Assembly: GCA_026874595.1 (NCBI GenBank)
Contig: CM049318.1
Location: forward strand, 2,479,741-2,543,740
Reading direction: 5' to 3'
Source: Sipunculus nudus
Taxonomy: Eukaryota; Annelida; Sipuncula; Golfingiida; Sipunculidae
Length of the DNA stretch: 64,000 nucleotides
Shown: in pieces, positions 7,318 to 64,000 of the stretch
How the letters are laid out: each line of letters begins with the position of its first letter
Position numbering within the stretch: the first letter of the stretch is position 1
The notes under the pieces: model-generated
The model's database searches: none
Told to the model about the DNA's origin: nothing
The model's input: the letters and a program-made list of their open reading frames with translations, nothing else
Position numbers and translations under genes: made by a program

Positions 7318-9583
7318 AACTAGACATTTCTTGGCACCGAAGGTGCCAGTGTATCCCCAGACATAGTAGGCCCCCCCCCCTTTAAGAATAGACCCCAATT
7401 TTTAGCAGCATATACTGACACTTGGCATATTTATTGTTTCCTCCATCTAACAATCCACAATCTTGTTGAAGATGTTGGTCCTGTGACCTTAATCTTTTTA
7501 AAGATGTGTCCTGTGACCTTGACCTTTGACCTCATGACCCCAAAATCAATTTGGGTCTTGCTTTTCCAATGGGACATATGCAAGTCAAGTTTGAAATCTA
7601 TACATCAATTAAGCAGGAATTATCATCCAGAAACTATTTTTTTTGGACAGATGGCTCCTGTGACCTTCACCTTTGACCTTGTGACCTCAAAATTGATAGG
7701 GGTCTTCCACTCTTGGCAGGTGAACTATATGTGCAAGATGAAAGATATGAGATGAATTGTTTGGCTGAAAATGCATCCACAATCTTTTTAAAGAGGTTTC
7801 CTGTGACCTTGACCTTTGACCTCATGACCCAGAAATCAATTCGGGTCTTGCTTTTCCAATGGGTCAAATACAAGTCAAGTTTGAAATCCATACATCAATA
7901 AAAGCAGGAATTATCATCAAGAAACTAATTTTTGGACAGATGGCTCCTGTGACCTTCACCTTTGACCTTGTGACCTCAAAACTGATAGGGGTCTTCCTCT
8001 CTTGGCAGGTGAACTATATGTGCAAGATGAAAGATCTGAGATGAAATGTTTGGCTGAAAATGCATCCACAATCTTTTTAAAGATGTGTCCTGTGACCTTG
8101 ACCTTTGACCTCATGACCCAAAATCAATTTGGGTCTTGCTTTTCCAATGGGACATATACAAGTCAAGTTTGAAATCCATACATCAATAAAAGCAGGAATT
8201 ATCATCCAGGAATTAATTTTTGGACAGATGGCTCCTGTGACCTTCACCTTTGACCTTGTGACCTCAAAACTGATAGGGGTCTTCCTCTATTGGCAGATGA
8301 CTTATATGTGCAAGATGAAAGGTTTGAGATGAAATGTTTGGCTGAAAATGCATCCACAATCTTTTTAAAGATGTGTCCTGTGACCTTGACCTTTGACCTC
8401 ATGACCCCAAAATCAATTGGAGTCTTGCTTTTTCAATGGGACATATATTAGTCAAATTTGAAATCAATACATCAATAAAAGCAGGAATTATCATCCAGAA
8501 ACTTATTTTTGGACAGATAGCTCCTGTGGCCTTGACCTTTGACCTTGTGACCCTAAAATTTATATGCATCATCCACTATTGGCAAGTGAGCTCTATATTC
8601 AAGATGGAAGACCTGGAATGAAAGTTTGACTTAAAATGCATCCACAGTATCTTTTAAAATGCCAGTCCAGTGACCTTGACCCTTTACCTCATGACCCTAG
8701 AACCTATAGGGTTCTTACTTTAGTGGTGGGCCATACATAAGTCATGTTTGAAATCCATATGTCTATCAACACTGAATATATCATAATAGGTGTGTGATTT
8801 TCACCATATATGGCAATATTCAAGGTCAAGGCCACTATCATAGGAAAGGTCATGACCCCAATTTAAATAAACATCATCCCATAACCAATACCTATGTATA
8901 TGCATAATATTTGACCTTTGACCTCATGACCCTAGAACCTATACGTTCTTACTTTAGTGGTGGGCCATACATAAGTCATGTTTGAAATCCATATGGCTAT
9001 CAACACTGGAGATATCATAAGAGGTGTGTGATTTTCACCATATATGGCAATATTCAAGGTCAAGGCCACTATCATAGGAAAGGTCATGACCCCAATTTAA
9101 ATAAGCATCATCCCATAACCCATACCTATGTATATGCATAATATAAAAGAAATCTGTCCATTAGTTTTTGACTTATAATGCTCACAGTGCTGTAAGATGG
9201 CAATTTTGGGGGTATTAAACGGCACGAAAACAAGTAAAGAATAATAGGTGGCGCCACCAGTTTCTGGAACATGACAACCCTATCCATGATCTTCCATCAA
9301 CTTGATTTTTGGATAAATCCATGCAAGATTGCTTGAGATATTAAAGAATTTGTGGGATTTTCCCCAAAATTGGACCTATTCAAGGTCAAGGACACTCTCC
9401 TAGTAAAGGTCATGACCTCATTTTAAATAGGCGTCGTCCTCTTACCCATATCTATACATATACCAAGTTTGGTAAAGTTCTGTGAAATATTTTTTGGGTT
9501 ATCGCGCCAACAAGATTCATATGCGGCAGCGGCGGGACCGGTATGAAAACATAGTATCCCCCGACTTTGTCTGGGGATACAAT
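7318..9583 (+). mobile_element. F1-type non-autonomous element with TGACCT tandem core, complete copy
   Basis: The left end is AACTAGACATTTCTT, then the hairpin GGCACC-GAA-GGTGCC, then GTATCCCCAGACA. The right end is a hairpin at about 9554-9580 with arms GTATCCCC and GGGGATAC, and TGTCTGGGGATAC inverts the left motif. The core at about 7480-8690 alternates two related units of about 146 bp, one with TTGACCTTTGACCTCATGAC and one with TTCACCTTTGACCTTGTGAC, giving a period near 290 bp. A later duplicated block lies at 8690-8900 and 8905-9140. GGTGGCGCCACC is at about 9249. The open frames here are by-products of the repeat. Confidence 0.85.
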
Positions 9584-10395
9584 AAGTGAATATACAGCCT
9601 TTGAGATGGCTTGTGTTCAGTTAAGCTTAAAGATCACATAGAAATATGACATAAAAGATATATTGGTATAATTTGATTTGGAGAGACACAACTGCTCTTT
9701 ATTATTGCAACATATGCTCATGGTTCCCTGTGCAAACACAAAAAAAACTCAGTTGATTCGTCAGCTGTAGCAGGGGCCTTTAAGGTTTACGCCAGCTCCA
9801 GTGAGCAAATAAAGCAACAGATCAATCAACGTGGAATTTGCTCTGTGCGGATAAAGTCCGCTTGTTCTCCAGCCTGCTGTGTGCAGTGTTCTGGGAACAT
9901 ACTGGTGCAACAATACTTCTCTGGCCACGTTTGAATCACAGTCAACTAACCTTTGACCTTAGTCACCTCAAATTGCCAAGCCATCAGGTGGATTCCCCTT
10001 TTTCTGTATCCTTGTCATCTGTCATTCATAGCATCTGGTCTGTCAAGTGGCTTCCATGAATAAATGCCAAGGCTGAGTAGTTTCTTTCCCCTTTTATATG
10101 AGCAACTTTCTGGGTTAAGTTGAACGTCCTCTGTTTTGTCATGCACAGAATAAGACAAATCATGTCTCCATCCCCAGTTTCTGTCTCATGGTGTGCTGGT
10201 TTGGCACCTTCAGGGTTTCCTTCATATATCCAAGAATTCTTCCATAGGCTGGCAAATGTGGTGTAGGTTAATACAGTATGTGAGTTGAATATTTTTTGGT
10301 TTTGTGTAAATGAATTATTTATGAGGTCATTTATTTTGTAGTTTTACCAAGGAATAGAGCTTTTATAAACAGGGAGTGTACAAGTTAAGAGTTAA
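9584..10395. other. No recognisable gene or element
   Basis: Apparently unique sequence within receptor intron 2. The 73-codon open frame at 9838-10059 has no motif and no codon pattern that I trust. Confidence 0.4.
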
Positions 10396-10430
10396 AACAA
10401 GGGACCCATGGGTCACAAAATATGATTTGG
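10396..10430 (+). mobile_element. F4-type left terminus, solo
   Basis: AACAAG is followed by the perfect 12-bp palindrome GACCCATGGGTC, as in the F4 copies at 22476, 31108 and 33123. The subterminal GCTCAGCTGA is missing or decayed. A possible right end lies at 11725 or 12008, but no link can be shown. Confidence 0.5.
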
Positions 10431-13639: not shown

Positions 13640-15065
13640 AACAAGTGACCTGTTGGTCATGACGCTCAGCTGACTGACATGTTGATAATATGTCCTTGCA
13701 CAGACAACTAATTAAGATAGATGACATCATTGTTGATACAAATTAGCTTAAGTTCATCAAGAAACCATAAGCACAACAAATTTGATGACAATCCAACCAG
13801 CTTTTCATGAGGAATCTGGCAATTTGTGTGTATTTTGCATTATTTCGGGGGTGCTCAAACATACCCAAAAACTCTGAGAATATAGGTTAACTGTGACCCA
13901 ATTTCAGGTTTCTGTAGAGAACTTTTTAGGAACTCTCAGGATGTCAAGTTAGAAGATTCTGGGCCCCTAGTTATGATTTGTGCCCTACTTTGGCATCAAA
14001 TTTTCAATTATTCTGAGGGGTACTTATAAGCCCCATAGCTCAAAAAATATGGGTAACAGAGACCTTAATTAATGTTTCAAAGGAGACTTTTACAGATCTC
14101 CCTGGATGTTAAGTTGAAAATTCTAGGACCAATGGTTACAATTTGAGCCCTGTTTAGGGATTACTGCATCTTTTAAGGTCTCAAAATAGAAAATAAAAAT
14201 CATAAAAAATCGAAAAAATACCAGTGGCGCCACCAGTCACCAGAAACTGATGAAACACTCCATGATGCATATGCATGCAAAGAATAATGCCGATCAATGC
14301 ACTAGCTGTTCAGATACCAAAGCTTTTGTATCAAATTTTTAGTTATTCTGGGGGGTATTTCTGAGCCCCATAGCTCGGACAATATGGGTGACAGAGACCT
14401 AATTTCAGGTTTCCATGGAGACTTTTCATGGACCTCCCAGCATGTCAAGAAAAAAGATTCTAGGTCTAGTCTTTTTGATTTGTGCCCTGTTAACAGATGA
14501 CTGCATCTTTTAAGGTCTCAAAAATAGATAAATAAAATAGTAAAGTATTGAAAAATACAGGTGGTGCCACCAGTCTGCTGAAACTGATGAAACACTCCAT
14601 GATCAATATCCATGCACAGAATCATGGTGATCGATGCATAAGTTGTTCAGATACTTGAGCTTTTGTATCAAAGTTTCTATTATTCTGGGGGGGGGGGGGG
14701 TTCATGGAAGCCCCATAGCTCACAGGTTTTGGGTAACAGAGACCTAATTCAAGGTTTCCAAAGAGACTTTTCATGGGCCTCCCTGCTTGTCAAGACAAAA
14801 GATTCTAAGTCCAGCTATCAAGATTTGTGCGCTGTTAACAGATGACAGTATCTTTTAAAGTCTCAAAAATAGAGAAAAAAATCGTAAAAAATAAAACAAG
14901 GCCTACAGGCCTAATGCAAACCTGTGCAAAGTTTAGGAGTATGAAAGGAGGTTTATTTTAAAATTTAATATTGATCCTCTTAAGTCCTGCATATCTACCT
15001 TAGTCATTATGATTTCAGCAAAATGGACATTTCAAACCTGCAAGTTTCAGACCAGGACATTTTAA

Positions 15066-16243
15066 AACCAGAATATGGGTAGTTGACAAGCAACTATGTG
15101 TATCTGCAGATATCAGAGTGGGACAGGTGAAGTGAGGCATGGATTAATTGGCAAGGGGAATAGAGTGAGGTGTGTTGCATATTAGCATGGATGTCTGCAG
15201 CTTAAACAGGAACGTAGGCGGTGCCACCTGTCATAAAATTGAGAAAATTGTCCAGGATGTATAAACCTGCAAAATTTCAGTCAAACCACTGCTGAGATAT
15301 GAATGATTTTATCCCAAGGCAGATGAACAGATGGATGCTGTGCATAAGTGGTTGCAGGTGGCTCCACAAGTTTTGCCTATGATGAAGAGCTATGTGAGAT
15401 CTAAACACAAGCAAAATTTTGGCCCAATCAGTCAAACTGTTCCCGAGATATGAGCTTCGATGTCTGCAGAGTAAATGTGAATGTAGGTGGCGCCACCTGT
15501 CATAAAATCAAGAAAGCTGTCCAGGATGTATAAACCTGCAAAATTTCAGGTGGAAAAGTTAAACCACTGCTGAGATATGAGTGATTTTATCCCACGGCAG
15601 ATGAACAGATGGACGCTGTGCATTAATGGTTATAGGTGGCGCCACCAGTTTTGCCTATGATGAAGAGCTATGTGAGACCTATATACATGCAAAATTTAGC
15701 CCAATCGGTCAAACGGTTCCCAAGAAATGAGCTTGGATGTCTGCAGAGTAAACGTGAATGTAGGTGGTGCTACCTGTCATAAAATTGACAAAGCTGTCAA
15801 GGATATATAAACCTGCAAAATTTAAGGTGGAAAAGTCAACCACTGCTGAGATATGAGTGATATTATCCCAAGGCAGATGAACAGATGGATGCTGTGCAAA
15901 AATGGTTGCAGATGGCGCCACCATTTTTAGTGTATGTTATAAAGCTATCATGGGGCTACATTTATGCAAAATTTTTAGCCTGATCGGTCAAACAGTTCCC
16001 GAGATATGTGGGTTTATGTGAGGAAACAAACGCACAAATGGATGCTGGGCAGAGAGGAAAGGTCAAAGGTCAACCAAAAATAAGGGCGCAACAGTTCACG
16101 TGACCGATCATAATTCAAAATTTAAAAAAATTTTGCCCAGTGGTTATGGAGGAGTCCTCTGGAAACCTATGTGGCGATGGCGGCAGCGTCGGCGTCTGAC
16201 TGAAAACAGAGTATCCGCAAAACTCTGTTTTGGCGGATACAAT
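15066..16243 (+). mobile_element. F2-type element, complete copy, nested in F5
   Basis: The left end is AACCAGAATATGGGTAG, then a GTAGTT-GACAAGC-AACTA hairpin and GTGTATCTGC. The right end at 16211-16240 is a hairpin with arms GTATCCGC and GCGGATAC. The core unit of about 260-280 bp alternates GGTGGCGCCACCTGTCATAA with GGTGGCGCCACCAGTTTTG. Just before the right end is AGGTCAAAGGTCA (16060-16072). Confidence 0.8.
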
Positions 16244-16600
16244 GATTGTAGCTGGCACCACCAGTCTTATATACAACAAAGATATATATAAATATGCCCA
16301 ATGTCAGACTGATACGTCAAACTCCTACTGTGGAATAAACAGGGACATACACTGTGCAAAAATTATTGTAGGTGGCGCCACCAGTCTTGTACACTATAAA
16401 GCTACCCGATATGTATAAACATGCCCAATTTTAGGCTGATGTATCAAAATCCTCTGTAGAAATAAGCAGGCACATACACTGCAAAAGTCAATGTATGTGG
16501 CACCACCTGTCTTGTAAAAGAGAATACCATCAAAGATGCACAGACATGTCAAAATATCAGTCCAATACATCAAACTTCCCCAGAGTTTGATGCACTGGGC
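16244..16600 (+). repeat. Tandem array of about 125-bp units
   Basis: About three diverged units carry GGTGGCGCCACCAGTCTTGTA, ATATGTATAAACATGCCCAA, and a CATACACTG(T)GCAAAA stretch. They resemble the F2 core but lack F2 ends here. They may belong to the element that F2 entered. Confidence 0.6.
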
Positions 16601-16609
16601 TGACAAGGC

Positions 16610-16870: not shown

Positions 16871-19024
16871 GGCACTGTGCCAAAACTTTGCTTTTCAGCT
16901 GACTTTTTATAAAAAAAAAAAAAACAGGAATATATGTAAAAAATTATTACTGATGCATACTGAATGCAAAATTAAAATACAGATATATCTCATTGATGGC
17001 AAATTATTGAATTAAGTTGAGTAGGGATACCAATAATTTATATCTACGTACAGTTGTCTTTATACAGCCACAGAGAGGTGAATATCCATGATTGTTACAT
17101 TGCCTGGTACGACGAATAACTTAAATCATAAATCTAAATTTTTTAAAAGCTTTTAAAAAAACTTTCTTGTCACTATCAACCAAAGATAACCTGAAATCTA
17201 ATTGTCTAGTGGCATGATGTAATAGATGCTGATAAACTGGTGCCAGGCTAGATGTAACAGCATAGCACAGCTAACATATATGGTAAAATGACTCAATTCA
17301 ATCTCCATAATTCAGCCAAAAATCATTCATGTGGAACCATAAATGACAATTATCATAAGAATTATTGTAGGGATTATTCTTGTAAAATATTTAACAAACT
17401 GGCTTCAGTGGCATCAGTCGAAAAACGTTTCGCAGGTTTATAACTCATATAGGAAGATACAGCAAACTTGCTAAATTCAGCTTTCTGTAACTCAGCCAAA
17501 AAGCACTGAACCAAAACCATTTGAACAAAATTGAATTATCAACATCTGAGGATAATTAATGTGTGAGATTTACGAATTTGGCCCAGTGGTTTTTGAGAAG
17601 AAGATCTTTGTGGCCACTGAGCTAAAATGGGCTGTTATGGCATATGACTAAATTCAGCTTCCCATAACTTAGCCAAAATTCAATGAAAAGAGACCATTTG
17701 AACAAACTTCAGAAAACACTACCCTAGGATCATTTCTGTGCGATATTAACATTTTGGCCATATGGTTTCAGAGAAGAAGTTTTTTGTAGCCCTCAGTGTG
17801 ATACAGGCACTGATGACCCCATACAAAAAAGGCGGATGCAGGTGGCGCCACCAATACCTCAATTTCAGATAAGACCTATGTGACCAACATTGGCATAAAA
17901 TTTGGTGATGATAGCTCCAGCCATTTCTGAGATTTAAATTTTAATATGCTTTTTTGCACATTAAACAAAGTTCAACCTCCTGTAACTCAGCCAAAAATCT
18001 CCAAACTGGAACCATTTGAACAAACTTGAGAAAGATTGTTCCAGGGATCATATCTGTGATATATTGGACAATTTGGCTGGACAGTTTTGGAGAAGAAGTT
18101 TTTAAAAGGTTTTTTAGCTTTTTCCCTATAAAATCTAAGAAAATGCAGTTAGAAAAAAAATAAACAAAATCCGATATAGTTTTTTGGATGACTGAATATT
18201 TGCAAAAAATTTGGTGATGCTAGCTCCTGCCGTTTTTGAGATAGCTATGGTTAACGTACAGACAACGCACGATGTACGACGCACGACGGACGACGCCGCA
18301 CCATCGCAATAGCTCACAGGTTTGCTTAAAATACAGGTGGCACCATCATTCTGCAAAATATCTGATATAACACCCCATGATCAATATCCATGCTAAGAAT
18401 CATGGTGATCCATGCATTAGTTGTTCAGATACTTGAGCTTTTGTAACAAATTTTTAATTATTGTGTGGGGTACTTCAGAGCCCCATACCTTGAAGAATAT
18501 GGGTATCAGAGACCTAATTCTAGGTTTTCAAGGAGACTTTTCATGGACCTATCTGAAAGTAAAGTTAGAACATTCCAGGTCCAGCGTTTACGATTTGTGC
18601 CCCTGTTAACAGATAACGGCATCTTTTGAGGTCTCAAAAATAGAGAGAAACAAATCGAAAAATATAGGTGGCGCCACCAGTCTTCAGAAACTAATTAAAC
18701 ACTCCATGATCAATATCCATGCAAAGAATCATGGTGATCAATGCATTAGTTGTTCAGATATTTGAGTTTTTGTATCAAATTTTTCATTATTCTTGGGGGT
18801 ACTTCGGAGCCCAATTGCTTGAAGAATATGGGTAACAGAGACCTAATTCCAGGCTTCCAAGGAGATTTTTCATGGACCTCCCTGGATATAAAGTAAGAAG
18901 ATTCCATGGCCAGTGGTTACGACTTGTGCCTTGTTAACGGACAGACGGCCTGCCAGCCTGACGGCCGATGGACAAAAAGTGATCGCTTTAGCTCAGATGA
19001 CTTACAGTCATCTGAGCTAAAAAC

Positions 19025-20217: not shown

Positions 20218-20257
20218 ACATGTTTGTGAAGAACCAGACATTCATACACAAAAGCAG

Positions 20258-22266: not shown

Positions 22267-23812
22267 CTGCAACAACAATGTCAGTTAATAAAAAATATCA
22301 TTACTTTCTTAACAACTACATAAACAGATAATGATGGATTTTCCTCGATTTGCACATTATGCATCATGCAATTGGTGTTCACAAAGTTCATGATCAGCAG
22401 AGGCATCAGCTTTAAAGCAGGTTTTAAAATATAAGTATAATCACACATGGTTAAATACTTAAACAGAGTCTTAATACAAGTGACCCATGGGTCAAGACGC
22501 TCAGCTGCCAAGAAATGACCTGCGACATCATGGGCTGAGATTCACAACTTCCAGTCAAATTTTGAAGAACCAATTTGCCAATTTGTTGAAATTTTCTACG
22601 ACAACATAAATATATATCACCTATGTCTGGTTAAAACACAGTGAATTGATGGTCTGAGGAAAATGTATGATTGTTAAGGTATCCAGAACTATTCCCATAG
22701 CTTACTTGATACCTGTCATTCTCAAAAGGAACACCACAAAGGGCAAATATAAGATCAAAATATATAGCAAAAAATCAAGGAAATCCATGCAAGAATTATT
22801 GAGAAACAGGTGCTTCTGTATGAATTTTTAATCAATACAAGCCAACTGTACTGCACTTTCATATATGATGATAATATTTATTAAGAAATATTTGACCCAA
22901 TCCTTTGCAAGATTACATTAATATACATCCGACTGCCTTCACTTTAACAGTTCATGAGATAATATGATGAAAAGGAATTTGAAGATGGTTGCCTGGTGGC
23001 CATTTTGGACTTCTGACAGGTCTGAAATCAGACAACAACCATTCTCTAAATCGGACCAAAAATTGAAGGAAAATTACTGAAACTGCACTGAAAAAAGGAT
23101 TTCTAAGGTGGCTAACTGGCAGATATAAGGGATTTCTGACAAGTCTGACATTTGATATCACACATCCTCCAATAAGAGACCAAACTTGGGGCAAATTCTC
23201 CAAATGACGTTACAGTAATGAATGTCCAAAACAATTCAAAAGGCATGTTCAGGCGCTCATATCAGATTTACAGATATGCAAATGTAAAAGTGTAGGTCCA
23301 ATATTTTTTATTATCACTCTGCTTTTCAATGGGGTCAGCAGGGTTGGTAAACTGCAAAACCTGAAAGAAAAGAAATGCAGAAAGCATTACTAAGAGTCTT
23401 GTAATAAAATAAAGCCATCCTAAATCAAGTACACATCCACATATTATGAGAACAAACACTTGCTTTTATATGTGGTGATTTATATAAAAATATTCAGATA
23501 TCTAGGAAACTAAGTTTATTGCTATGATTCCATAAAATAAACTGCAAAATGTTCCCATCATCTTATAAATCAGTAGCTAAACCTTAATACTATACTCTCA
23601 TAGTGTTAATTCCTGGCTGAAGTATTCCAACAACAGTGTTTTGTTATGCAGTAAGGAGGTACTTATCACTCAGCCTTATCACTTAATAGCCTGATACAAA
23701 AGGCAGTCATATGTCACCAGTGTCACTCACAATTACAGCCACATGCTGAGATGTACCAGCTGGAGTGCAAGCTTATATATACAAGAAAAATAGAGATGGT
23801 CTACAAAATAAG
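22267..23812. other. Intron 1 start, with an F4-type left end
   Basis: AATACAAGTGACCCATGGGTCA at about 22476-22500, followed by GACGCTCAGCTG, is a clear F4 left terminus. Its partner may be the right end at 24908, which would make one 2.4-kb element, but the middle (22510-23812) is not a known core. An acceptor-like site near 23370 opens a short frame; it is not called as an exon. Confidence 0.5.
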
Positions 23813-24908
23813 TTGACTTGACCTATGACCTTGGCCTTTTGCCCACATATCAACTGGATTCTTTCTAAATGATGGGTAACTACTAACCAATTACATCTGG
23901 CCAGGTGTATTTACTTGGCAACCAATAAGTGAATAACTTAGACCTGCAACCTTTAACCTCCTGACCAGCTGACCTCAAAATCAATTAGTTATTTCTTCAT
24001 GCAAAAAGACCCATAAATATGAAGTTTGAATCACATTGAGTGATGCATAGATGTGGCATATGTGAAAGACTGAAGGTTTGGGTTGAACAGTTTCACTTGA
24101 AATATGTTCACAAGCATTTAGAACAATATTGTGACCTTGACCTTTGACCTTTTGAACTCAACTTCAATAGGCTTCTTCCCCTATTGGTAGGTAAGCCATA
24201 TATGACAGATGGAAAGTATAGATTGAAAAGTTTGCCTGAAAATGACTCCACCCAAGAAGTGGGTGCTGTGAACTTGACCTTTGACCTCAAAATCAACAGG
24301 TCTTTTCCCCTGTTGGCAGAGAAGTGATATCAGTGCTGAAAGTTTTGTAATGAAAGGTCTAGCTTGAAATGTGTCCATAACCTTTTCAAAGAAGTGGATC
24401 CTATGACCCTGACCTTTGACCTTGTGACCTCAACATCTATAGGATTCTTCTCCCACTTAGTAGGTGAGCTATATGTGAAAGATCAAAGTATTGGGATGAA
24501 AGGTTTGGCTTAAAATGCGTCCACAGGCTTTTCAAAGAAGTTGGTTCTGTGACCTTGACCTTTGACCTTATGACCTCAAAATAATTATGGTTCTTCCCCT
24601 GTTGGTAGGTGAGCTGTATGTGAAAGATGGAAGGTTTGGGATGAAAATTTTGGCTAAAAGAATTATTTCTGGGGGGTGCAAACACACCCCATAACTTCGA
24701 GAATATAGGCCGCAGTGACCTAATTTCAGGTTTGCAAGGAGATCTTTTTAGAACCTCTAAGACTGCATAGGGTTCATGGCCCTAGCCCGTACGGTTATGA
24801 TTTGTGCCCTGCTAACGGCCGGACGGCCGGCCGGCCGGACAGATGGAAGGACGACGGACAAAGACCCATCGCTATAGCCCAGCATGACTGAAAGTCAGCT
24901 GAGCTAAA
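23813..24908 (+). mobile_element. F4-ended element with TGACCT tandem core
   Basis: Units of about 140 bp with TTGACCTTTGACC, TTCTTCCCC(T/C), TGTTGGTAGGTGAGC, and TATATGTGAAAGAT run to about 24660. They then join an F4 core remnant (TTCTGGGGGGTGCAAACACA, ACCTAATTTCAGGTTT) and the F4 right end: a CCGGACGG-rich stretch, ATAGCCCAGCATGACT and AGTCAGCTGAGCTAAAAA. The core is thus F1-like and the end F4-like. Confidence 0.7.
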
Positions 24909-31107: not shown

Positions 31108-31430
31108 GTTTTATAACTAGGGACCCATGGGTCTCGACTCTCAGCTGACTTTGTCTATAAGGATATTTTTACACATTTTCCAGAATGACAGTCCTGTGAC
31201 CTTAACCAATGACCTTGTAACAAAAAATCTGAGAATTTATTATCCTTAAAATTGCAACATTTAGATTATTGTAACAATCTTTTAAAAATAAGTGGGTCCA
31301 GTGACCTTGACCTCTGACCAGATAACCTCAAAATCTACAGTTTTCCTCAGTTGGGCAAGTAAGCCAGAAAGATGGAAAGTTTGGGATGAAAAGTTTGATT
31401 AACAGTGCATCTACTTCTGACAAGACTACT
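31108..31430 (+). mobile_element. F4-type left end joined to TGACCT units
   Basis: AACTAGGGACCCATGGGTC, then CGACTCTCAGCTGAC, is an F4 left end. About 80 bp on come two diverged TGACCT units (GTCCTGTGACCTTAACC; CCAGTGACCTTGACCTCTGACC). No right end was found. Confidence 0.6.
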
Positions 31431-33182: not shown

Positions 33183-35631
33183 AACTAGATGTGTCGGAAC
33201 GACACGAATGCCCCCGCCTTGGGCAAATTAGAAACATTTGTAAAATTTGGAAAATTTTTTAAGTCCAGGAGGTGTCGTATGATCAAAAGTAGGTCAACCG
33301 GGATGAAACGCGAACTCGATCTGTAACTGGTCTATATCTGCTCACACACCAAAAATCATGCCAGTATATGAAGGCATTGTGAAAAAAAATCCGTACATGT
33401 GTATCTGTCATGAATATTTCTATTTTTCATGATATTTTCTATGTTTAGGAGCCGTAAAACAATCAAAAGTAGGTCAACCGGGATGAAACGCAAACTCGAT
33501 CTGTAACTGTCATTATCTGCCCACACAAAAAAAATCAGGGTGGTATCTGCAGGCATTGAGGAAAAAAAGTCAGTACATATGCATTTGTTATGAAAATTAA
33601 TATTTTTCATGAAACTTTCTATGTTCAGGAGCAGTCTAATGGTCAAAAGTAGGTCAACTGAGACAAAACAAGACTCGATCTGTAACTGGTCATTATCTGC
33701 CTACACACCAAAAATCAGGCCTGTATCTGCAGGCACTGCAAAAAAAAGTCCATACATATGCACCTTTTTATGAAATTTTCTATGTTAGAGCACCATCAAA
33801 CGGTCAAAAATAGGTCAACTGGGACAAAACGTGAACTTGATCTGTAACTGGTCATTATCTGCCCACACACCAAAAATCAGGCCAATATCTGCAGGTATTG
33901 TGAAGAAAAGTTTGTACAAGTGTATTTGTCATGAAAATATATATTTTACATGAAATTTTCTATGTTCAGGAGCCGTAAAACAGTCAAAAGTAGGTCAACC
34001 GGGACGAAATGCGAACTCTATCTGTAACTGGTCAATATCTGCCGACACACCAAAAATCAGGCCAATATCTGCAGGCATTGCGAAAAAAAGTTCGTACATG
34101 TGTATTTGTCATGAAATTTCATATTTTTAAAGGAAATTTTCTATGTTCAGGAGCCGTAAAACGGTCAAAAGTAGATCAAGCGGGACGAAATGCGTACTCC
34201 ATCTGTAACTGGTCTATATCTGCCCACACACCAAAAATTAGCCCAATATCTGCAGGCATTGCGAAAAAAGTCTGTACATGTGTATCTGTCATGAATATTT
34301 CTATTTTAATGAAATTTTCTAAGTTTAGGAGCTGTAAAACGGTCAAAAGTAGGTCAACCGGGACGAAACGTAAACTCGATCTGTAACTGGTATATATCTG
34401 CCCACACACCAAAAATCAGGCCAATATCTGCAGGCATTGCGAAAAAAAGTCTGTACATATGTATCTGTCATGAATATTTCTATTTTTCATGAAAATTTCT
34501 AAGTTTAGGAGCCGTAAAACGGTCAAAAGTAGGTCAACTTTGATGAAACGCGAACTCGATCTGTAACTGGTCTATATCTGTCCACACACAAAAAATCAGG
34601 CCAATATCTGCAGGCACTGCGAAAAAAAGTCCGTACATGTGTATATGTCATGAAATTTCATATTTTTCATGAAATTTTCTAGGTTTAGAAGCCGTAAAAC
34701 GGTCAAAAGTAGGTCAACCAGGACGAAACGCGAACTCGATCTGTAACTGGTCCATATCTGCTCACACACCAAAAATCAGGCCAATATCTGCAGGCATTGC
34801 GAAAAAAAGTCCGTACATGTGTATCTGTCATGAATATTTCTATTTTTCATGAAAATTTCTAAGTTTAGGAGCCGTAAAACGGTCAAAAGTAGGTCAACCG
34901 GGTTGAAACACGAACTCGATCTGTAACTGGTCTATATCTGTCCACACACAAAAAATCAGGCCAATATCTGCAGGCACTGCGAAAAAAAGTCTGTACATGT
35001 GTATTTGTAATGAAATTTCATATTTTTCATGAAATTTTCTATGTTTAGAAGCCGTAAAACGGTCAAAAGTAGGTCAACCAGGATGAAACGCGAACTCGAT
35101 CTGTAACTGGTCTATATCTGTCCACACACAAAAAATCAGGCCAATGTCTGCAGGCACTGCGAAAAAAAGTCTCTACATGTGTATTTGTCATGAAATTTCA
35201 TATTTTTCATGAAATTTTCTATGTTTAGGAGCCGTAAAACGGTCAAAAGTAGGTCAACCAGGACGAAACGCGAACTCTATCTGTAACTGGTCTATATCTG
35301 CTCACACACCAAAAATCAGGCCAATATCTGCAGGCATTGCGAAAAAAAGTCCGTACATGTGTATCTGTCATGAATATTTCTATTTTTCATGAAATTTTCT
35401 ATGTTTAGGAGCCGTAAAACGGTCAAAAGTAGGTCAACCAGGATGAAATAGCGAACTCGATCTGTAACTGGTCTATATCTGCCCACACACCAAAAATCAG
35501 GCCAATATCTGCAGGCATTGCGAAAAAAAGTCCGTACAACTGTTTGATTTCGGAATGACGGAATGACGGAAGGACGGAATGACGGACATGGGTAAAACTA
35601 TATGCCCCGGCCACTTTGTGGCGGGGGCATA
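33183..35631 (+). mobile_element. F3-type element with 180-bp tandem core, complete copy
   Basis: The left end is AACTAGAT, then the hairpin GTGTCG-GAA-CGACAC, then ATGCCCCCGCC. The right end at about 35601-35630 is a hairpin, TATGCCCCGGCCAC-TTT-GTGGCGGGGGCAT, whose right arm inverts the left motif exactly. The core has 13 units of mostly 178-182 bp marked by GTCAAAAGTAGGTCAAC (about 33280, 33462, 33643 and on to 35419), with AACTCGATCTGTAACTGGTC, and ATATCTGCAGGCATTGCGAA. The units are more alike toward the right. A short GACGGAATGACGGA repeat precedes the right end. Confidence 0.9.
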
Positions 35632-37384: not shown

Positions 37385-38561
37385 AACTAGAATATGGGTA
37401 GTCGGCAAGTGACTACGTGTATCCGCCTAAATCAGAGAGGTACGGGTGAAGTGATGAAAGGATATAGAGGTAATTGGAAAACCTTGTGTGGTAGATGACA
37501 TATTACATGAAAGATATAGATTAGTTGGTGTGGAATTGTTATGATGTAAAGGCTGAATTACCTGGAGGGAGGGAGATAGGTGGCGCCACTTGTCATATCA
37601 ACAAAAAAACCTATCCAAGATGTATACACGTGCAAAATTACATGTGAATAAGTCCAACCACTGCAGAGATATACATGATTTTATTGCAAGGCAGACAAAC
37701 AGATGGACGCTGTGCAAAAACAGTTGCAGGTGCCACCACCAGTTTTAGGTATAATAAAGGGCTATGTTAGACCAATACACATGCAAAATTTCAGGCTGAT
37801 ATGTCAAACCAGTCCTGAAATCTAAGCATGGTTGTCTAGAGCATAAACAGGGAGGTAGGTGGCGCCACCTGTCACAAAAATGAAAAAACTATCCAAGATG
37901 AATAAACATGTAAAATTTCAGCCCAATTGGTCAAACAAGTCCTGACATATCAGCATGAATGTCTGCACTGCAAACACATAGGTAGGTGGCGCCACCTGTC
38001 ATATCTGAGCTAAAAATCTATCCAAGATGTATAAACATGCAAAATTTCAAGAGAATAAGTCCAACCACTGCAGAGATATGCATGGTTTTATTCAAAGGCA
38101 GATAAACAGATAGCCGCTGTGCAAAAATAGTTGCAGGTGGCGCCACCAGTTTTGGATATGTAAAAGGGCTATGTTAGACTTATACATATGCAAAATTTCA
38201 GGCTGATCGTCAAACAAGTCCTGAGATATTAGCATGAATGTCTGGAGCATAAACAGGAAGGTAAATCGAAAACCTATCCAAGATGTATAAACGTGCAAAA
38301 TTTCAGCCTGATCAGTCCAACTATTCCAAAAATATGGGGGTTTATGTGTGAACACAGATGCACAGATGGAGGCAGAGCGCTAAGGAAAGGTCAGAGGTCA
38401 AAATAAAATCAGGGCGCAGCAGTTCACATGTGACCCTAACATAATCCCGGGTTTTATTAATTCGGCCCAGCGGTTATGGAGGAGTTCTCCGGACACCTAT
38501 GCGGCAGGGGCAGGGGGCTGAAAACATAGTATCGGCAAAACTCTGTTTTGCCGGATACAAT
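37385..38561 (+). mobile_element. F2-type element, complete copy
   Basis: The left end is AACTAGAATATGG, then a GTAGTC-GGCAAGT-GACTAC hairpin and GTGTATCCGCC. The right end at about 38528-38560 is a hairpin with GTATCGGCAAAAC and GTTTTGCCGGATAC. Core units alternate GGTGGCGCCACCTGTCA with a GGCGCCACCAGTTTT block. AGGTCAGAGGTCA is at 38388-38400. Confidence 0.85.
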
Positions 38562-39566: not shown

Positions 39567-42131
39567 AACTAGAATACGGGTAGTGGACAAGCAACTACGT
39601 GTATCTGCCAAAATCAGAGTGGAATGGGTGAAGTGAGGCATGGATTAAGTGGCAAGGGGAAACAGAGTTAGGTGTGTTGCATATTAGCATGGATGTCTGC
39701 AGCCGAAATGTGTATGTAGTTTGCGCCACCTACCACAAAATCCAGAAAGCTGTCCAATTTGTATACATATGCAAAATTTAAGGCAGAAAAGTCAAACCAC
39801 TACATGTATATGAGTGATTTTATCCCACAGCAGACAAACAGAAGAACTTGTGCAAAAATGGTGGCAGGTGGCGCCACCAATTTTGTGTATGATTAAGAGC
39901 TATGTGAGATCTATACACATGCAAAATTTCAGGGGGATATGTCCAAGCAGTCCATAGATTTAAGCCTGAATGTCTGCAGCTTTAAATAAATGTAGGTGGC
40001 ACCACCTGCCAAAAAATCGAGAATGCTTTCAAAGATGTATAAACACGCAAAATTTTAGGCAGATAATTTGTACCACTACAGAGATATGAGTGATTTTAAC
40101 CCAAGGCAGACAAACAGACGGACGCTGTGCAAAAATGGTAACAGGTGGCCCCTCCAGTTTTGTGTATGATAAAGAGCTATGTGAGATCTATACACATGCA
40201 AAATTTTTGCCCAATTGGTCAAACGGTTCCCGAGATATGAGCTTGTATGTCTGCAGTGTAAACTAGAATGTAGGTGGCGCCACCTGTCATGAAATCAAGA
40301 AATCTGTCCAGGATGAATAAACCTGCAAAATTTTAGGCATATATGTCAAACCACTACAGAGTTATGAGTGATTTTAGCCCACAGCAGACAAACAAACAGA
40401 CGCTGTGCAAAAATGGTTGCAGGTGGCCCCTCCAGTTTTGTGTATGATAAAGAGCTATGTGAGATCTATACACATGCAAAATTTTTACCCAATTGGTCAA
40501 ACGGTTCCCGAGATATGAGCTTGTATGTCTGCAGTGTAAACTAGAATGTAGGTGGCGCCACCTGTCATGAAATCAAGAAATCTGTCCAGGATGAATAAAC
40601 TTGCAAAATTTTAGGCATATATGTCAAACCACTACAGAGTTATGAGTGATTTTAGCCCACAGCAGACAAACAAACAGACGCTGTGCAAAAATGGTTGCAG
40701 GTGGCCCCTCCAGTTTTGTGTATGATAAAGAGCTATGTGAGATCTATACACATGCAAAATTTTTACCCAATTGGTCAAACGGTTCCCGAGATATGAGCTT
40801 GTATGTCTGCAGTGTAAACTAGAATGTAGGTGGCGCCACCTGTCATGAAATCAAGAAATCTGTCCAGGATGAATAAACTTGCAAAATTTTAGGCATATAT
40901 GTCAAACCACTACAGAGTTATGAGTGATTTTAGCCCACAGCAGACAAACAAACAGACGCTGTGCAAAAATGGTTGCAGGTGGCCCCTCCAGTTTTGTGTA
41001 TGATAAAGAGCTATGTGAGATCTATACACATGCAAAATTTTTGCCCAATTGGTCAAACGGTTCCCGAGATATGAGCTTGTATGTCTGCAGTGTAAACTAG
41101 AATGTAGGTGGCGCCACCTGTCATGAAATCAAGAAATCTGTCCAGGATGAATAAACCTGCAAAATTTTAGGCATATATGTCAAACCACTACAGAGTTATG
41201 AGTGATTTTAGCCCACAGCAGACAAACAAACAGACGCTGTGCAAAAATGGTTGCAGGTGGCCCCTCCAGTTTTGTGTATGATAAAGAGCTATGTGAGATC
41301 TATACACATGCAAAATTTTTACCCAATTGGTCAAACGGTTCCCGAGATATGAGCTTGTATGTCTGCAGTGTAAACTAGAATGTAGGTGGCGCCACCTGTC
41401 ATGAAATCAAGAAATCTGTCCAGGATGAATAAACTTGCAAAATTTTAGGCATATATGTCAAACCACTACAGAGTTATGAGTGATTTTAGCCCACAGCAGA
41501 CAAACAAACAGACGCTGTGCAAAAATGGTTGCAGGTGGCCCCTCCAGTTTTGTGTATGATAAAGAGCTATGTGAGATCTATACACATGCTAACTTTTGGC
41601 CCAATCGGTCAAATGGTTCCCGAGATATGAGCTTGGATGTCTGCAGCGTAAACTAGAATGTAGGTGGCGCCACCTGTCATAAAATAAAAAAACTATCCAT
41701 GATGTATTCGCATGCCGAATTAGTGAAATAATAAGGTGAATTAGTCAAACCACTGCAGAGATATGAGTGATTTTAACCCAAGGCAGATGAACAGATGGAC
41801 ACTGTGCAAGCATGGTTGCAGGTGTTGCCACTACTTTTTGTGTAGGTTATAAAGCTATCCAAGGGCTACATTTGTACAAAATCTTTTCCTGATCCGTCAA
41901 ACAGTTCCCAAGTTATGTGGGTTTATGTGTGGAAACAGACGCACAAATGGATGCTGGGCAGAGAGGAAAGGTCAGAGGTCAACACAAATTGGTTAGACAC
42001 CAGTTCACACATGACCGGATAATTGGTGTAAGTTTTGGAAAAATCCGTCCAGTAGTCCCAGAGGAGTTCTCCGGAAATGAACGTGGCGGTGGCGGCGGCT
42101 GTGAAACCCAGTAAAAAACATAGTATCCGCA
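39567..42131 (+). mobile_element. F2-type element, expanded core, right hairpin cut
   Basis: The left end is AACTAGAATACGG, then GTAGTG-GACAAGC-AACTAC and GTGTATCTGCC. The core is enlarged by near-identical 278-bp units. AGGTCAGAGGTCA is at 41969-41981. The right end stops at ATAGTATCCGCA, so the second arm of the terminal hairpin is missing. Confidence 0.85.
40139..41600 (+). repeat. 278-bp tandem units inside the F2 copy
   Basis: GGTGGCGCCACCTGTCATG recurs at 40273, 40551, 40829, 41107 and 41385, exactly 278 bp apart, with only a few differences between units. Each also holds GGTGGCCCCTCCAGTTTTG and ACTAGAATGTAGG, the latter like the F2 left end. The low divergence indicates recent expansion. 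Confidence 0.95.
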
Positions 42132-42261: not shown

Positions 42262-42490
42262 TTGAGGTTTTTCCTTAATATCTTGAAGGAACGAAGTCCT
42301 ATGGACCCAATTTTCAGCATGGTAGGAGATTTTGGGGACATCTATCTGTATGCCAAATTTCAGATTCGTAGGTCCAATAGTGTCAAAACATGTCAGTTTT
42401 ATGGATGGACATCCGGACGGAAGGATGGACGATGGACAATGGACCACAACTATAGCTCAGATGACTTAAAGTCAGCTGAGTTAATAAAAA
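42262..42490 (+). repeat. Dispersed 240-bp repeat with F4-like right end, copy 2
   Basis: Partner of 11480-11725. The right end has CTATAGCTCAGATGACTTAA and AGTCAGCTGAGTTAA, a more complete terminal hairpin than copy 1. Confidence 0.75.
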
Positions 42491-55300: not shown

Positions 55301-55498
55301 CCTGATTGTAGTACATTCCATCAATGGATGCACTTCAGGCTTTTGTGATTCAGGTCTGTAAACAGGAACCAGCTCCACTGATTGTAGTACATTCCATCAA
55401 TGGATGCACTTCAGGCTTTTGTGATACAGGTCTGTAAACAGGAACCAGCTCCCCTGATTGTAGTACATTCCATCAATGGATGCACTTCAGGCTTTTGA
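46306..55498. repeat. Satellite array, 76-bp unit, about 121 copies, with higher-order structure
   Basis: The unit (CATCAATGGATGCACTTCAG, GCTTTTGTGATTCAGG, TCTGTAAACAGGAACCAGC, TGATTGTAGTAC) recurs every 76 bp with very few changes. Rare variants reveal larger copies. The segment at 48723-48932 returns at 50471, 51231, 52751 and 53511, offsets of 23, 10, 20 and 10 units. The block at about 50000-52250 is repeated 2280 bp (30 units) later, and about 47720-49200 is repeated 1748 bp (23 units) later. The 69-codon open frames on the minus strand mark one variant segment and are not genes. Confidence 0.98.
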
Positions 55499-61194: not shown

Positions 61195-62930
61195 AACTAG
61201 ACATTTCTTGGCACCGCAGGTGCCAGAGTATCCCCAGACATAGTAGGCCCCCCCCCTTTAAGAATAGACCCCCATTTTTAGCAGCATATACTGACACTTG
61301 GCATATTTATTGTTTCTTCCATCTAACAATCCACAATCTTGTTGAAGATGTTGGTCCTGTGACCTTGATCTTTTTAAAGATGTGTCCTGTGACCTTGACC
61401 TTTGACCTCATGACCCCAAAATCAATTTGGGTCTTGCTTTTCCGATGGGTCAAATACAAGTCAAGTTTAAAATCCATACATCAATAAAAAAAGGAATTAT
61501 CATCCAGAAACTAATTTTTGGACAGATGGCTCCTTTGACCTTCACCTTTGAACTTGTGACCTCAAAATTGATAGGGGTCTTCCACTCTTGGCAGGTGAAC
61601 TATATGTGCAAGATGAAAGATATGAGATGAATTGTTTGGCTGTAAATGCATCCACAATCTTTTTAAAGAGGTTTCCTGTGACCTTGACCTTTGACCTCAT
61701 GACCCCAAAATCAATTCGGGTCTTGCTTTTCCAATGGGTCAAATACAAGTCAAGTTTGAAATCCATACATCAATAAAAGAAGGAATTATCATCCAGAAAC
61801 TAATTTTTGGACAGATGGCTCCTGTGACCTTGACCTTTGACCTCATGACCCCAAAATCAATTCGGGTCTTGCTTTTCCAATGGGTCAAATACAAGTCAAG
61901 TTTGAAATCCATACATCAATAAAAGAAGGAATTATCATCCAGAAACTAATTTTTGGACAGATGGCTCCTGTGACCTTGACCTTTGACCTCATGACCCCAA
62001 AATCAATTCGGGTCTTGCTTTTCCAATGGGTCAAATACAAGTCAAGTTTGAAATCCATACATCAATAAAAGAAGGAATTATCATCCAGAAACTAATTTTT
62101 GGACAGATGGCTCCTGTTACCTTGACCTTTGACCTCATGACCCCAAAATCAATTCGGGTCTTGCTTTTCCTATGGGTCAAATACAAGTCAAGTTTGAAAT
62201 CCATACATCAATAAAAGAAGGAATTATCATCCAGAAACTAATTTTTGGACAGATGGCTCCTGTGACCTTGACCTTTGACCTCATGACCCCAAAATCAATT
62301 CGGGTCTTGCTTTTCCAATGGGTCAAATACAAGTCAAGTTTGAAATCCATACATCAATAAAAGAAGGAATTATCATTCAGAAACTAATTTTTGGACAGAT
62401 GGCTCCTGTGACCTTCACCTTTGAACTTGTGACCTCAAAATTGATAGGGGTCTTCCTCTCTTGGCAGGTGAACTATATGTGCAAGATGAAAGATCTGAGA
62501 TGAAATGTTTGGCTGAAAATGCATCCACAGTATCTTTTAAAATGCCAGTCCAGTGACCTTGACCTTTGACCTCATGACCTTAGAACCTATAGGGTTCTTA
62601 CTCTAGTGGTGTGCCATACATAAGTCATGTTTGAAATCCATTTGGCTATCAACACTGGAGATATCATAAGAGGTGTGTGATTTTCACCATATATGGCAAT
62701 ATTCAAGGTCAAGGCCACTATCATAGGAAAGGTCATGACCCCAACTTAAATTAACATCATCCCATAACCCATACCTATGTGTATGCATAATATAAAAGAA
62801 ATCTGTCCATTAGTTTTTGACTTATAATGCTCACAGTACTGTAAGGTGGCAATTTTGGGGGTATTAAACGGCATGAAAACAAGTAAAGAATAACAGGTGG
62901 CGCCACCAGTTTCTGGAACATGACAACCTA
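61195..62930 (+). mobile_element. F1-type element, homogenised core, cut by F6
   Basis: The left end AACTAGACATTTCTT, GGCACC-GCA-GGTGCC and GTATCCCCAGACA match the copy at 7318 almost base for base. The core contains one unit type five times in a row at 146-bp spacing (about 61676, 61822, 61968, 62114, 62260), flanked by the other type. Sequence matches the first copy up to ACATGACAACC at about 62929, where the F6 left end begins; the F1 right end is absent from the window. Confidence 0.85.
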
Positions 62931-64000
62931 AACTAGACGACCATAGGTCGAACGCTTGCCGGAAATCGGAAGTGAAACACAGACGGACAGACAGAACATT
63001 TTGTTTTCTATCAATGGAATGACTCTCAGGGCCATTGCTGAGAATATGTGGCCAGTAGAATGACATATGAGACAAAAGAACAGGCAAGCAGACAAAGCCG
63101 ACAACAAAAGACGAACAGACAGACATACTGACTTTGTGAGACAAGATTGACACCAGATGACTTAACCTAGTTATGGAGAAGATTCAAAGGAAGAAAATGA
63201 GTTATAATTTATGTAATTTAGATTAATAGTTTTGGAGGTATGGCGAATTAATGATATACTTGGGAGGTTCGACTGTAGCGCCCTCTAGCGGACATATTCC
63301 AAAAACGACAAACGCGTTTCGTATTATTAGAGTATGACATGAGATGTCCCAGTTTCAAAAGGATTCCGTCAAAGCTGTGGCCTGTAGAATGCTATATGTA
63401 AGGCGTAAGAACCAGCAAGCAGGCGACTTTGAGGATAACGGACAAACAGATGGACACACTGAGAAAGTGACAGAAGATTGAAACCACATGCCTTAATCAG
63501 GTTATGGAGAAGACTCAAAGGAAGAAAATAAGCTATAGTTTATGTAACTGAGGCTTTGGTTGTAGAGATATGGCCAATACAATGGTATGTGTGTGAGGGT
63601 TGTGTGCAGCGCCCACTAGTGGCCATATCCGGAAAATGAAAATTTGGTTTCGAGATATTAGTGTAAGACATAAGGTGTAATAGTTTCAAAAGGATTCCAT
63701 CAAAACTGTGGCCTATAGAATGCTATATGTGAGACGCAAGAGCAAGCAGGCGAATTTGAGAACAACTGACAAACAGACAGACACACTGACAAAGTGACTC
63801 GAGATTGAGTTCAGATGGCTACTCCAAGGTATGCAGAAGACTCAAAGTAAGAAAAAAGCTACAGTTTATATAACTGAGGTTTATAGTTTTGGAGATATTG
63901 CCAAAGCATGATATGTTGGGAGAGGTTCGAGTTCAGCGCTCCCTAGCGGCCATATCCAGAAAATGAAAAATTGGTTTCGAGATATTAGTGTAAGACTTAA
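62931..64000 (+). mobile_element. F6-type element with 330-bp tandem core, runs off the window
   Basis: The left end is AACTAGACGACCATAGGTCG (hairpin CGACC-ATA-GGTCG), then GAACGCTTGCCGG. Core units of about 330 bp carry TTTCAAAAGGATTCC (63352, 63684), GGTTATGGAGAAGA, TTTGGAGATAT-like, and a GCGCCC(T/A)CTAG(C/T)GG site at 63278, 63609 and 63936. The right end lies beyond base 64000. An open frame on the other strand (62746-63153) crosses the F1/F6 junction and is not a gene. Confidence 0.75.

Follow-up and report, generated by a model that had tools for sequence, protein, structure and literature searches.

The window analysed here, 64,000 nucleotides of Sipunculus nudus DNA (assembly GCA_026874595.1, contig CM049318.1, positions 2,479,741 to 2,543,740 of the forward strand), carries repeat families that differ in sequence and share one layout, and raises the question of what kind of element this is and how it is mobilised. 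A sequence-only reading had described six such families, each with AAC(A/T)AG (AACCAG in one case) followed by a short hairpin, and six distinct left ends AAC(A/T/C)AG with a short hairpin were indeed located in the window; for five families (F1, F3, F5, F6 and G) both ends could be resolved. The family letters, including K for the sixth, were assigned in the present analysis, and the earlier F1-F6 may correspond differently.

Ends, inverted repeats and tandem cores in the window

The features of the six families are as follows.

6011..6027, minus strand: K 3' end, AACAAGGCCTACAGGCC; another copy at 14895
7318..9582, minus strand: F1 copy 1, 5' end at 9582, 3' end CTAGTT at 7318, 289-bp tandem core
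13640..13686, minus strand: G 3' end, AACAAG, hairpin TGACC/GGTCA, ATIR GCTCAGCTGAC
13988..14893, minus strand: G 337-bp tandem core, matching the core that lies upstream of the gene in the C17 Helentron, at 82.7% in the longest piece
15066..16242, minus strand: F3, AACCAG variant of the 3' end, 277-bp core
18989..19019, minus strand: G 5' terminal hairpin, TAGCTCAGATGAC-TTACA-GTCATCTGAGCTA
22474..24906, minus strand: G-ended element with an F1-like core (24130-24659), left end ATACAAG
31115..31161, minus strand: G-type 3' end, AACTAGGGACCCATGGGTC..CTCAGCTGAC
33183..35632, minus strand: F5, 180-bp core, 3' hairpin GTGTCGGAACGACAC, ATIR ATGCCCCCGCC exact, 5' hairpin ending ..GGCGGGGGCAT at the border with AAAAAA
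35551-35586: F5 microsatellite (CGGAATGA)n, adjoining the 5' end of the F5 element
37385..38560, minus strand: F3, left hairpin GTAGTC/GACTAC, right hairpin GTATCGGCAAAACTCTGTTTTGCCGGATAC
39567..42125, minus strand: F3, 278-bp core x7.2; the 5' terminal hairpin has decayed and the right border is approximate
42453..42483, minus strand: G 5' terminal hairpin, further copy
61195..62930, minus strand: 3' part of F1 copy 2, a copy split by F6; hairpin GTATCCCCCGACTTTGTCAGGGGATAC
62931..64000, minus strand: F6, 3' part, nested in F1 copy 2; full element to L001:3322, 4,392 bp

AAC(A/T)AG had been taken as the element start, and here the polarity has to be reversed: the hexamer, read on the other strand, is the 3' terminus CTWGTT, and the element has its 5' end at the right-terminal hairpin. 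Read reverse-complemented, an element opens with TT and a terminal hairpin on an 8-14-nt motif and closes with an inverted copy of this motif, a second hairpin and CTWGTT-3'; this layout has been published for Helitron2/Helentron elements and their gene-less derivatives, the HINEs. The letters CTAGTT reportedly also occur in a paper on a Brassica Helitron.

In F1, F3, F5, F6 and G the inverted-repeat motif (5' ATIR) lies at the terminus and pairs with downstream bases as the 5' hairpin, and the 3' ATIR is subterminal, directly upstream of a separate 3' hairpin. The recurrence of an internal motif, inverted, in the right-terminal hairpin was borne out for these five families, and not for K, for which a motif search found no 5' end, nor for the F3 copy at 39567 with its decayed right hairpin. 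The ATIRs are family-specific, with exact own-family matches of 14 nt in F1, 11 in F5 and 11 in F6 versus 4-7 between families; F3 is less clear, with 8 within the family versus 7 with F1, and the window copy of G has an exact own-family match of only 6 (10/11 by eye, and 11/11 in the C17 copy). In F1 copy 1, whose 3' hairpin is TGGCACC/GGTGCCA, the inverted repeat TGTATCCCCAGACA pairs with the 5' hairpin, and in the F3 copy at 15066 the ATIR TGTATCTGC differs from the terminal GCGGATACA by one mismatch. The 5' part of F1 copy 2 lies beyond the window (L001, about 3324-3617), as does the right end of F6 (L001:3293-3322); F1 copy 2 matches copy 1 at 88% in its 3' part and 93.5% in its 5' part.

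The tandem cores described previously were found in F1 (289 bp x4.4), F3 (277 bp x3.0 and 278 bp x7.2), F5 (180 bp x12.7), F6 (331 bp) and G (337 bp). A microsatellite stands beside the 5' module in F5 and likewise in F6 (L001:1155-1216 and 3251-3275). For the G left ends at 13640, 31115 and 10396, the last of them doubtful and lacking the inverted motif, no right end could be securely assigned in the window. The core of the G-ended element at 22474..24906 matches F1 at 74-86% in pieces >60 bp, and only 81 of its 2,433 bp match the C17 locus, which points to an apparent exchange of cores.

Chance controls and the high-copy family F5

Within the window, the hexamer was followed by a hairpin of stem at least 6 in 13 of 223 cases (5.8%) versus 6.2% of 3,000 random places, i.e. 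without enrichment. A scan for the whole layout returned 12 hits, four of them real ends, versus a mean of 2.8 and a top value of 13 for 60 permuted hexamers, and a second layout scan returned four hits (one spurious, at 41651) versus a mean of 1.16 for 119 permuted hexamers, at least eight of which gave four or more. As real ends could not be told from chance hits and tandem-repeat noise in these scans, the case is not built on them.

The window alone is insufficient to settle the architecture; the genome does so, because of the counts and the oriented pairing of F5 ends. Allowing up to one mismatch, 3,519 left and 3,838 right F5 ends were found genome-wide, versus none with reversed-letter controls. 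Among the exact left ends listed, 30 of 60 had a listed right end within 6 kb and in the correct orientation, versus 0.48 expected from random placement, and the correctly oriented pairs among the matches listed lay 0.28-3.2 kb apart. Furthermore, the flanks of F5 copies differ from one another and end abruptly at the same base.

Two empty sites, both paralogous and from one assembly, place F5 insertions in A-runs. Of eight copies with both flanks (7/10 bodies plus the window copy), none showed a target duplication directly adjoining the element beyond the A-runs. AAAAAT stood on both sides in three of the eight with offsets allowed, the left one at site B being host sequence in the empty copies. 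The occupied site B has 2-4 more A than the empty ones, and here T's borne by the element are indistinguishable from a 2-4-nt duplication. The comparison for one F6 copy showed no duplication and a loss of ∼13 bp of target, and is not a clean insertion. The empty-site check for target duplications proposed by the sequence-only reading, made for F5 and this F6 copy, therefore yielded none outside A-runs and an ambiguous 2-4 A within them.

Coding Helentrons with the ends of F6 and G

An autonomous Rep-helicase element with the same end, which the sequence-only reading had suggested searching for, was found for F6 (at C4 and C8) and for G (at C17). The C4 Helentron (G000:C4:36163192-36187217; 24,026 bp) is bordered on either side by F6-type ends, itself contains tandem arrays, and carries a 2,229-aa open frame with DUF6570, OTU, Helitron_like_N, REP_ORF2-G2P, PIF1 and Exo_endo_phos. 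Window F6 and this element are 98.3% identical over the 5' terminal 2.06 kb, and 4,119 of the 4,392 bp of F6 are covered by matches anywhere in the C4 Helentron, partly to repeat units; judged from these alignments, F6 is an internal-deletion derivative of the C4 Helentron. The similarity of C4 and C8 begins 4-5 nt outside the AACTAG end. The F6 3' hairpin covaries, with double changes in three of five pairs and 35/35 cells paired, versus 14-40% in slid controls.

The C17 Helentron, roughly 14.9 kb long with its 5' border set by the motif alone, has both G ends, a 337-bp core and a 2,342-aa frame. Both it and the C4 Helentron encode Rep, PIF1 helicase and an endonuclease region; at C17 the endonuclease match (23.1 bits versus a Pfam cut-off of 24.5) and the REP_ORF2-G2P match (18.2 versus 27.8) both lie below threshold. 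HUH (SPHAH/SPHIH), two-tyrosine and Walker A patterns occur in the five frames examined, and the open frames of the F6 and G partners had no Pfam match to a DDE transposase at E 0.01. The Reps of the two lineages are 31-32% identical over about 1,500 aa, and gene direction relative to the ends is opposite between them, the gene of the F6 lineage being opposed to the assumed 5'-to-3' direction. One kind of end is found with either gene direction, which suggests that the ends alone set polarity.

A C5 Helentron locus has the same G 3' end (75/79 nt) with different DNA past it, and the C7 and C11 copies are 99.2% alike across 13.9 kb and diverge right after ..GGCAAGCAA. For the Helentrons at C7, C11 and C13, no left end was found in the DNA examined, and the downstream pieces at C13:9109249, C8:39040575 and C14:41719183 gave no convincing CTWGTT and hairpin end with a known ATIR. 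A generic end scan of 15-kb Helentron pieces returned no ends, probably because the elements are longer. PF14214 has 143 matches in the genome, and the loci examined yielded no coding partner for F1, F3, F5 or K. Two candidates were set aside: near the C7:71189229 gene, F5 end motifs lie 1.7 kb apart and resemble a HINE, not a partner, and the F3 beside the C17 gene has the opposite orientation, facing away from it, and seems to be a separate copy.

Class of the elements, rival readings and meaning

Taken on sequence evidence, the elements are very probably non-autonomous Helentrons (HINEs, Helitron2 group) that would spread by rolling-circle copy-and-paste, trans-mobilised by the RepHel-endonuclease of full-size Helentrons of the same genome. 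Helentron/HINE had been named as the nearest known type, and the layout and the coding partners with the same ends agree with this. The proposed order is 5'-TT, 5' ATIR in the terminal hairpin, microsatellite, satellite-like tandem core, inverted 3' ATIR, separate 3' hairpin and CTWGTT-3'. Rep (HUH-Y2) would nick the 5' TT end and peel off one strand; when replication reaches the 3' end, the ATIR and hairpin would mark termination before CTWG, and the single strand (or circle) would be joined into a T-run. Full-size Helentrons may in this way mobilise the HINEs in trans. The sequence-only reading had proposed one mechanism recognising structure plus a hexamer; a single rolling-circle kind stands, whereas the family-specific inverted repeat had been omitted and at least two diverged Reps are involved, and therefore it is one mechanism, not one machine.

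That the families are cut-and-paste MITEs, with the inverted motif as a TIR recognised by a DDE transposase, is very improbable. The short inverted repeats close to either end, the many copies and a 2-4-nt duplication inside A-runs, with which the F5 data are compatible, would suit such elements, and the portion of PMC7492417 available to us states that bivalve Pearl was first described as a MITE. However, the inverted repeats are asymmetric, terminal at the 5' end and subterminal upstream of a second hairpin at the 3' end, the eight F5 copies have no abutting duplication outside A-runs, and the F6 and G partners encode Rep, helicase and endonuclease-type regions with no DDE match. Canonical Helitrons (Helitron1) with CTRR ends, with which 3' CTAG and a nearby 3' hairpin are compatible, are an even poorer prospect: the 5' hairpin, ATIRs, T-run targets, endonuclease fused to RepHel and 5' TT instead of TC all speak against them, and the 5' TT, 5' hairpin and ATIRs exclude Helitron1 as the main label. 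We give next to no credence to satellite arrays that share border motifs by chance and spread through recombination and not transposition. The large tandem cores, a core motif AGGTGGCGCCACC found in more than one family, G ends with an F1-like core and the weak in-window controls could be read in that way, but thousands of F5 ends, half of the 60 listed in oriented pairs, abrupt borders at the same base and coding partners with the same ends argue against it.

As non-autonomous Helentrons, the elements are members of an already known kind, and the useful points are the partner link and the satellite-like arrays inside coding elements. In the portions of the cited papers available to us, HINE/DINE-1-like elements (Thomas et al., 2014; PMC4067079) are alike in subterminal inverted repeats, hairpins at both ends, central tandem repeats in some, a T-rich target without duplication and a Rep-Hel-EN partner sharing ends, whereas the present 3' ends are CTWGTT and the partner is 24 kb long with tandem arrays of its own; a 5'TT/3'CTAG combination is reported there for an oomycete proto-Helentron. 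For the Cg_HINE elements of Pacific oysters, the part seen of Vojvoda Zeljko et al. (2020; PMC7492417) likewise describes a 5' subTIR with complementary IR and microsatellite, satellite-like central repeats, a 3' subTIR with palindrome, T-rich insertion and common ends with unlike cores among families. That study sought autonomous relatives of Cg_HINEs and, in the same part, could relate none, whereas two families here are tied to coding Helentrons. Helitron2, as far as the text seen of Bao and Jurka (2013; PMC3627910) goes, shares the 5' ATIR as 5' hairpin, T-run targets and a 3' ATIR that lies 20-30 nt from the terminus and directly precedes the 3' hairpin; here, in contrast, RepHel is fused to an endonuclease-type domain (Helentron) and both gene orientations occur in one genome. 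Fusarium FoHeli (PMC5148889, in part) resembles the present elements in its ATIRs, hairpins and repeated 5' termini and in having genes of either orientation within one species complex, and differs in that the fungal elements are without endonuclease and have ends TCAG...ATTTT and TGCCT...CTCCTGT.

In a broader scheme, which we consider unlikely, the CTWGTT 3' end with its hairpin may be a common low-specificity termination code for several diverged Helentron Reps, with the ATIR as family identity and gene orientation irrelevant to transposition; satellite-like arrays would then be intrinsic to autonomous elements, which would act as source elements seeding satellites into other families via core exchange. 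According to the part seen of PMC11136912, a large share of the satellite DNA of oysters is Helitron-related. In Sipunculus nudus, one HINE (F6) is shown to be a coding Helentron of 24 kb in shortened form, and family G has ends and core in common with a second one. Direct tests thereby become possible of trans-mobilisation, of what the inverted repeat and hairpin do, and of how the satellite arrays arose.

Element families and the polarity of their ends

Six families with a left end made of the hexamer AAC(A/T/C)AG and a hairpin (F1, F3, F5, F6, G and K) were located in the window, in line with the six proposed in the sequence-only reading, to which our family letters were matched by coordinates and description; in one left-end copy ATACAAG replaces the hexamer. 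Within the window the hexamer was not enriched for hairpins, a stem of at least 6 following 13 of 223 hexamers (5.8%) versus 6.2% of 3,000 random places. Scanned for the layout with an inverted motif of 8 nt, the window yielded 12 matches, four of them real ends (60 permuted hexamers averaged 2.8); with a 10-nt motif it yielded four, one of them spurious (119 permuted hexamers averaged 1.16). These in-window controls are weak, and support comes from genome-wide copies, borders and coding partners.

According to passages of Bao and Jurka (PMC3627910), the 5' inverted repeat (ATIR) of Helitron2 elements lies 0–2 bp from the 5' end and forms a hairpin with downstream bases, and the 3' ATIR lies 20–30 bp from the 3' end, directly upstream of a second hairpin. 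For oyster HINEs (gene-less Helentron derivatives), parts of Vojvoda Zeljko et al. (PMC7492417) describe a left module of subTIR, complementary inverted repeat and microsatellite and a right module of subTIR and palindrome; Thomas et al. (PMC4067079) report 5'TT and 3'CTAG ends for one oomycete proto-Helentron. The window elements match the Helitron2 and oyster HINE layouts only after reverse-complementing: the right hairpin is the 5' end of the element and AACWAG the complement of its 3' end, CTWGTT. The placing of AAC(A/T)AG at the element start was thus not borne out, and the choice of Helentron/HINE as the nearest known type agrees with these descriptions. A microsatellite neighbours the right hairpin in F5 and F6.

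The motif said to be repeated inverted at the right end was recovered, the longest exact own-family match being 14 in F1, 11 in F5, 11 in F6 and 8 in F3, as compared with 4–7 between families. The F3 value barely exceeds that of F3 versus F1, which have GGATACA in common, and shuffling the left segments produced matches of at least 8 in 28 of 2,000 trials. The G pair in the window scored only 6, within the between-family range, because it carries one mismatch; in the coding C17 Helentron, GTCAGCTGAGC near the 3' end and GCTCAGCTGAC at the 5' end are exact inverses. The right ends of F5 and F6 were set by diverging flanks, and those of F3 and G partly by the inverted match itself, which is not independent for these two families. 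On these comparisons the repeat is family-specific.

Copies, borders and insertion sites

Throughout the 1.43 Gb assembly, in which the window spans C13:2479741–2543740, 3,519 left and 3,838 right ends of F5 were found with at most one mismatch, and none with reversed-letter controls. The matches listed include 60 exact left ends on C1, as far as 31.9 Mb, and 100 exact right ends; 30 of these left ends are followed on their own strand, no more than 6 kb downstream, by a listed right end, delimiting elements of about 0.28–3.18 kb; three pairs had the wrong arrangement, and random placement of the ends gave a mean of 0.48 pairs (maximum 3 in 500 trials). Twenty left flanks were mutually different up to AACTAG, which was preceded by A in 15, T in three and C in two. 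The exact right hairpin was present in seven of ten fetched F5 bodies, with AAAAA next in each, and no right end was found in two (L046 and L051). The tenth, L049, has a one-base hairpin variant directly adjoining an F3 end, F5 and F3 lying end to end ∼1670–1750 from the AACTAG end. Beside the 5' end (window 35631; L047, L048, L050, L052–L055), five to six A followed by T were seen in seven of eight copies, the exception being A6G in L048; this A-run may reflect a preferred target or belong to the element itself.

Two F5 insertions were compared with unoccupied counterparts. At site A, window 16889–17314 corresponds to an F5 copy on C4 (L033 and L048; occupied GACTTTTTATAA|F5|AAAAAAGAAATC versus empty GACTTTTTATAAAAAAAAAAAAAACAGG), and at site B an F5 copy lies within a G core on C2 (L044 and L047; occupied TTTGAA|F5|AAAAATAGAGG versus empty ATTGAAAAATACAGG and ATCGAAAAATATAGG). 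In both, F5 was inserted in an A-run (a T-run in the element sense). Site B when occupied has two extra A outside AACTAG, or four counting its own AA, which may be element-borne T's, left open for HINEs in section 6 of Thomas et al. (PMC4067079), or a 2–4-nt duplication. Repeats abutting the element consisted of A only in eight F5 copies; with offsets allowed, AAAAAT stood on both sides in three of the eight, the left AAAAAT of site B being host sequence in the empty copies. For F6, which lies within F1 copy 2 (window 62931 / L001:3322, the latter beyond the right border), the two flanks, once joined, matched F1 sequence 41 times; six of these copies were fetched and five read, and compared with these five ∼13 bp of target are missing at the occupied site. 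The empty-site alignments called for in the sequence-only reading hence showed F5 in A-runs, with a short A duplication possible, and one F6 site with no target duplication but a small target loss, which is against a clean picture.

Coding Helentrons with the ends of F6 and G

The assembly was searched for Helitron_like_N (PF14214), giving at least 143 matches; among the 150 of 195 candidates scored, seven matches lay in open frames of >2,200 aa. Six loci were taken as 15 kb, of which five (all except C13) were extended, and 6-kb downstream pieces were taken from five further loci. Autonomous Rep-helicase elements with the same ends were obtained in this way for F6 (on C4) and G (on C17).

Window F6: 62931 to L001:3322, 4,392 bp, of which 4,119 bp have a match in the C4 element, in part to repeat units.
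C17 element: 5' hairpin at -4707 to 3' end CTTGTT at +10177 (15-kb-piece coordinates), 14,885 bp; 5' border by motif alone.

The C4 element extends from AACTAGACGCCCAGAGGGCGAACGCTTGCCGGAAG to TGCTTGCCGAAATCTTTGATTCCGGCAAGC (24,026 bp), and its 2,229-aa frame has Pfam domains above cut-off including DUF6570, OTU, Helitron_like_N, REP_ORF2-G2P, PIF1, Pif1_2B and Exo_endo_phos. The 5' 2,059 bp of F6 are 98.3% identical to it right up to the element's end, with the next-ranking piece of the F6 core at 93.0%; F6 is therefore a gene-less deletion derivative of the C4 Helentron. The C8 Helentron has an F6-kind left end (AACTAGACAACCTGAGGTTGAAC), its similarity to C4 beginning 4–5 nt outside the border, and the C7 and C11 copies are 99.2% alike and diverge just past the 5' end; the left ends of the C7, C11 and C13 Helentrons were not found in the DNA fetched around them. 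Seven F6-type 3' ends, chosen for having the 3' hairpin, were aligned, and 35 of 35 cells were paired, with both sides changing in three of five pairs (CG/UA, GC/AU, AU/CG). One of 500 shuffles, a control that ignores relatedness, reached the observed covariation score (0.419), and slid versions paired 14–40%; C8_up and C11_a share one change, leaving three types rather than four independent events.

In C8 (ORF-sense 15620–20984, L017), an F6-type element and ∼1.2 kb of other DNA are repeated with a period of 4,096 bp, as would be expected from bypassed rolling-circle termination or from ordinary duplication. In C11 (ORF-sense 16056–16063), F6-like copies follow one another without a gap, each 5' end directly adjoining the 3' end of the next copy.

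The C17 frame (2,342 aa) carries Helitron_like_N, PIF1, DUF6570 and Herpes_teg_N above cut-off, and Exo_endo_phos (23.1 bits) and REP_ORF2-G2P (18.2 bits) below it. Its core is 81–83% identical to the 337-bp core of the window over the three longest pieces (576–722 bp), and the C5:42912065 locus has its 3'-terminal 79 nt in common with C17 (75 identical), with different DNA beyond. The C4 and C17 proteins share 31.7% identity over 1,511 aa, and SPH(A/I)H, two-tyrosine and Walker A patterns occurred in the five frames inspected. Relative to the ends, the gene is oriented 5' to 3' in C17 and oppositely in C4 and C8; single inverted-gene cases (Helentron-Da-40, Helitron-2_CRe, Helitron-1_DR) appear in passages of PMC3627910 and PMC4067079, and inverted genes of Fusarium subgroups in a section of PMC5148889. 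An N-terminal herpes-tegument-like deubiquitinase domain was seen in the C17 protein (L010:2-5374:- residues 63–210) and an OTU domain instead in C4, both being known in Helentrons from part of PMC9741609.

Tandem cores and relation to known elements

The C4 Helentron contains arrays of 331 bp (6.1 copies) and 148 bp and the C17 Helentron one of 337 bp; satellite-like cores therefore belong to coding elements and not to HINEs alone. In the window, an F1-like core lies between the G ends at 22474/24906, which points to a core exchange like that described among oyster HINE families in PMC7492417. The palindrome AGGTGGCGCCACC(A/T)GT occurs in F1, F3 and G cores or tails (window 9246, 14559, 15485, 16370, 18666, 37857, 40272 and others), with 53 matches at ≤2 mismatches on both strands, many being the same site on both strands, against 0.02 expected. 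The window also holds a 9.2-kb satellite array (46307–55502; 76-bp unit, 121 copies, 97% matches). Two further arrays, to which no Helentron-type ends were assigned, have units of 133 bp (26751–29009; 17 copies, 98%) and 36 bp (19521–20214; 18.9 copies, 96%).

No bivalve HINE linked to a coding Helentron was found in the open-licence literature searched, including the available portions of PMC7492417, PMC4067079, PMC3627910, PMC5148889, PMC9741609 and PMC11136912. The elements are of the Helentron/HINE type already known, now with coding partners for two of the families, F6 and G.
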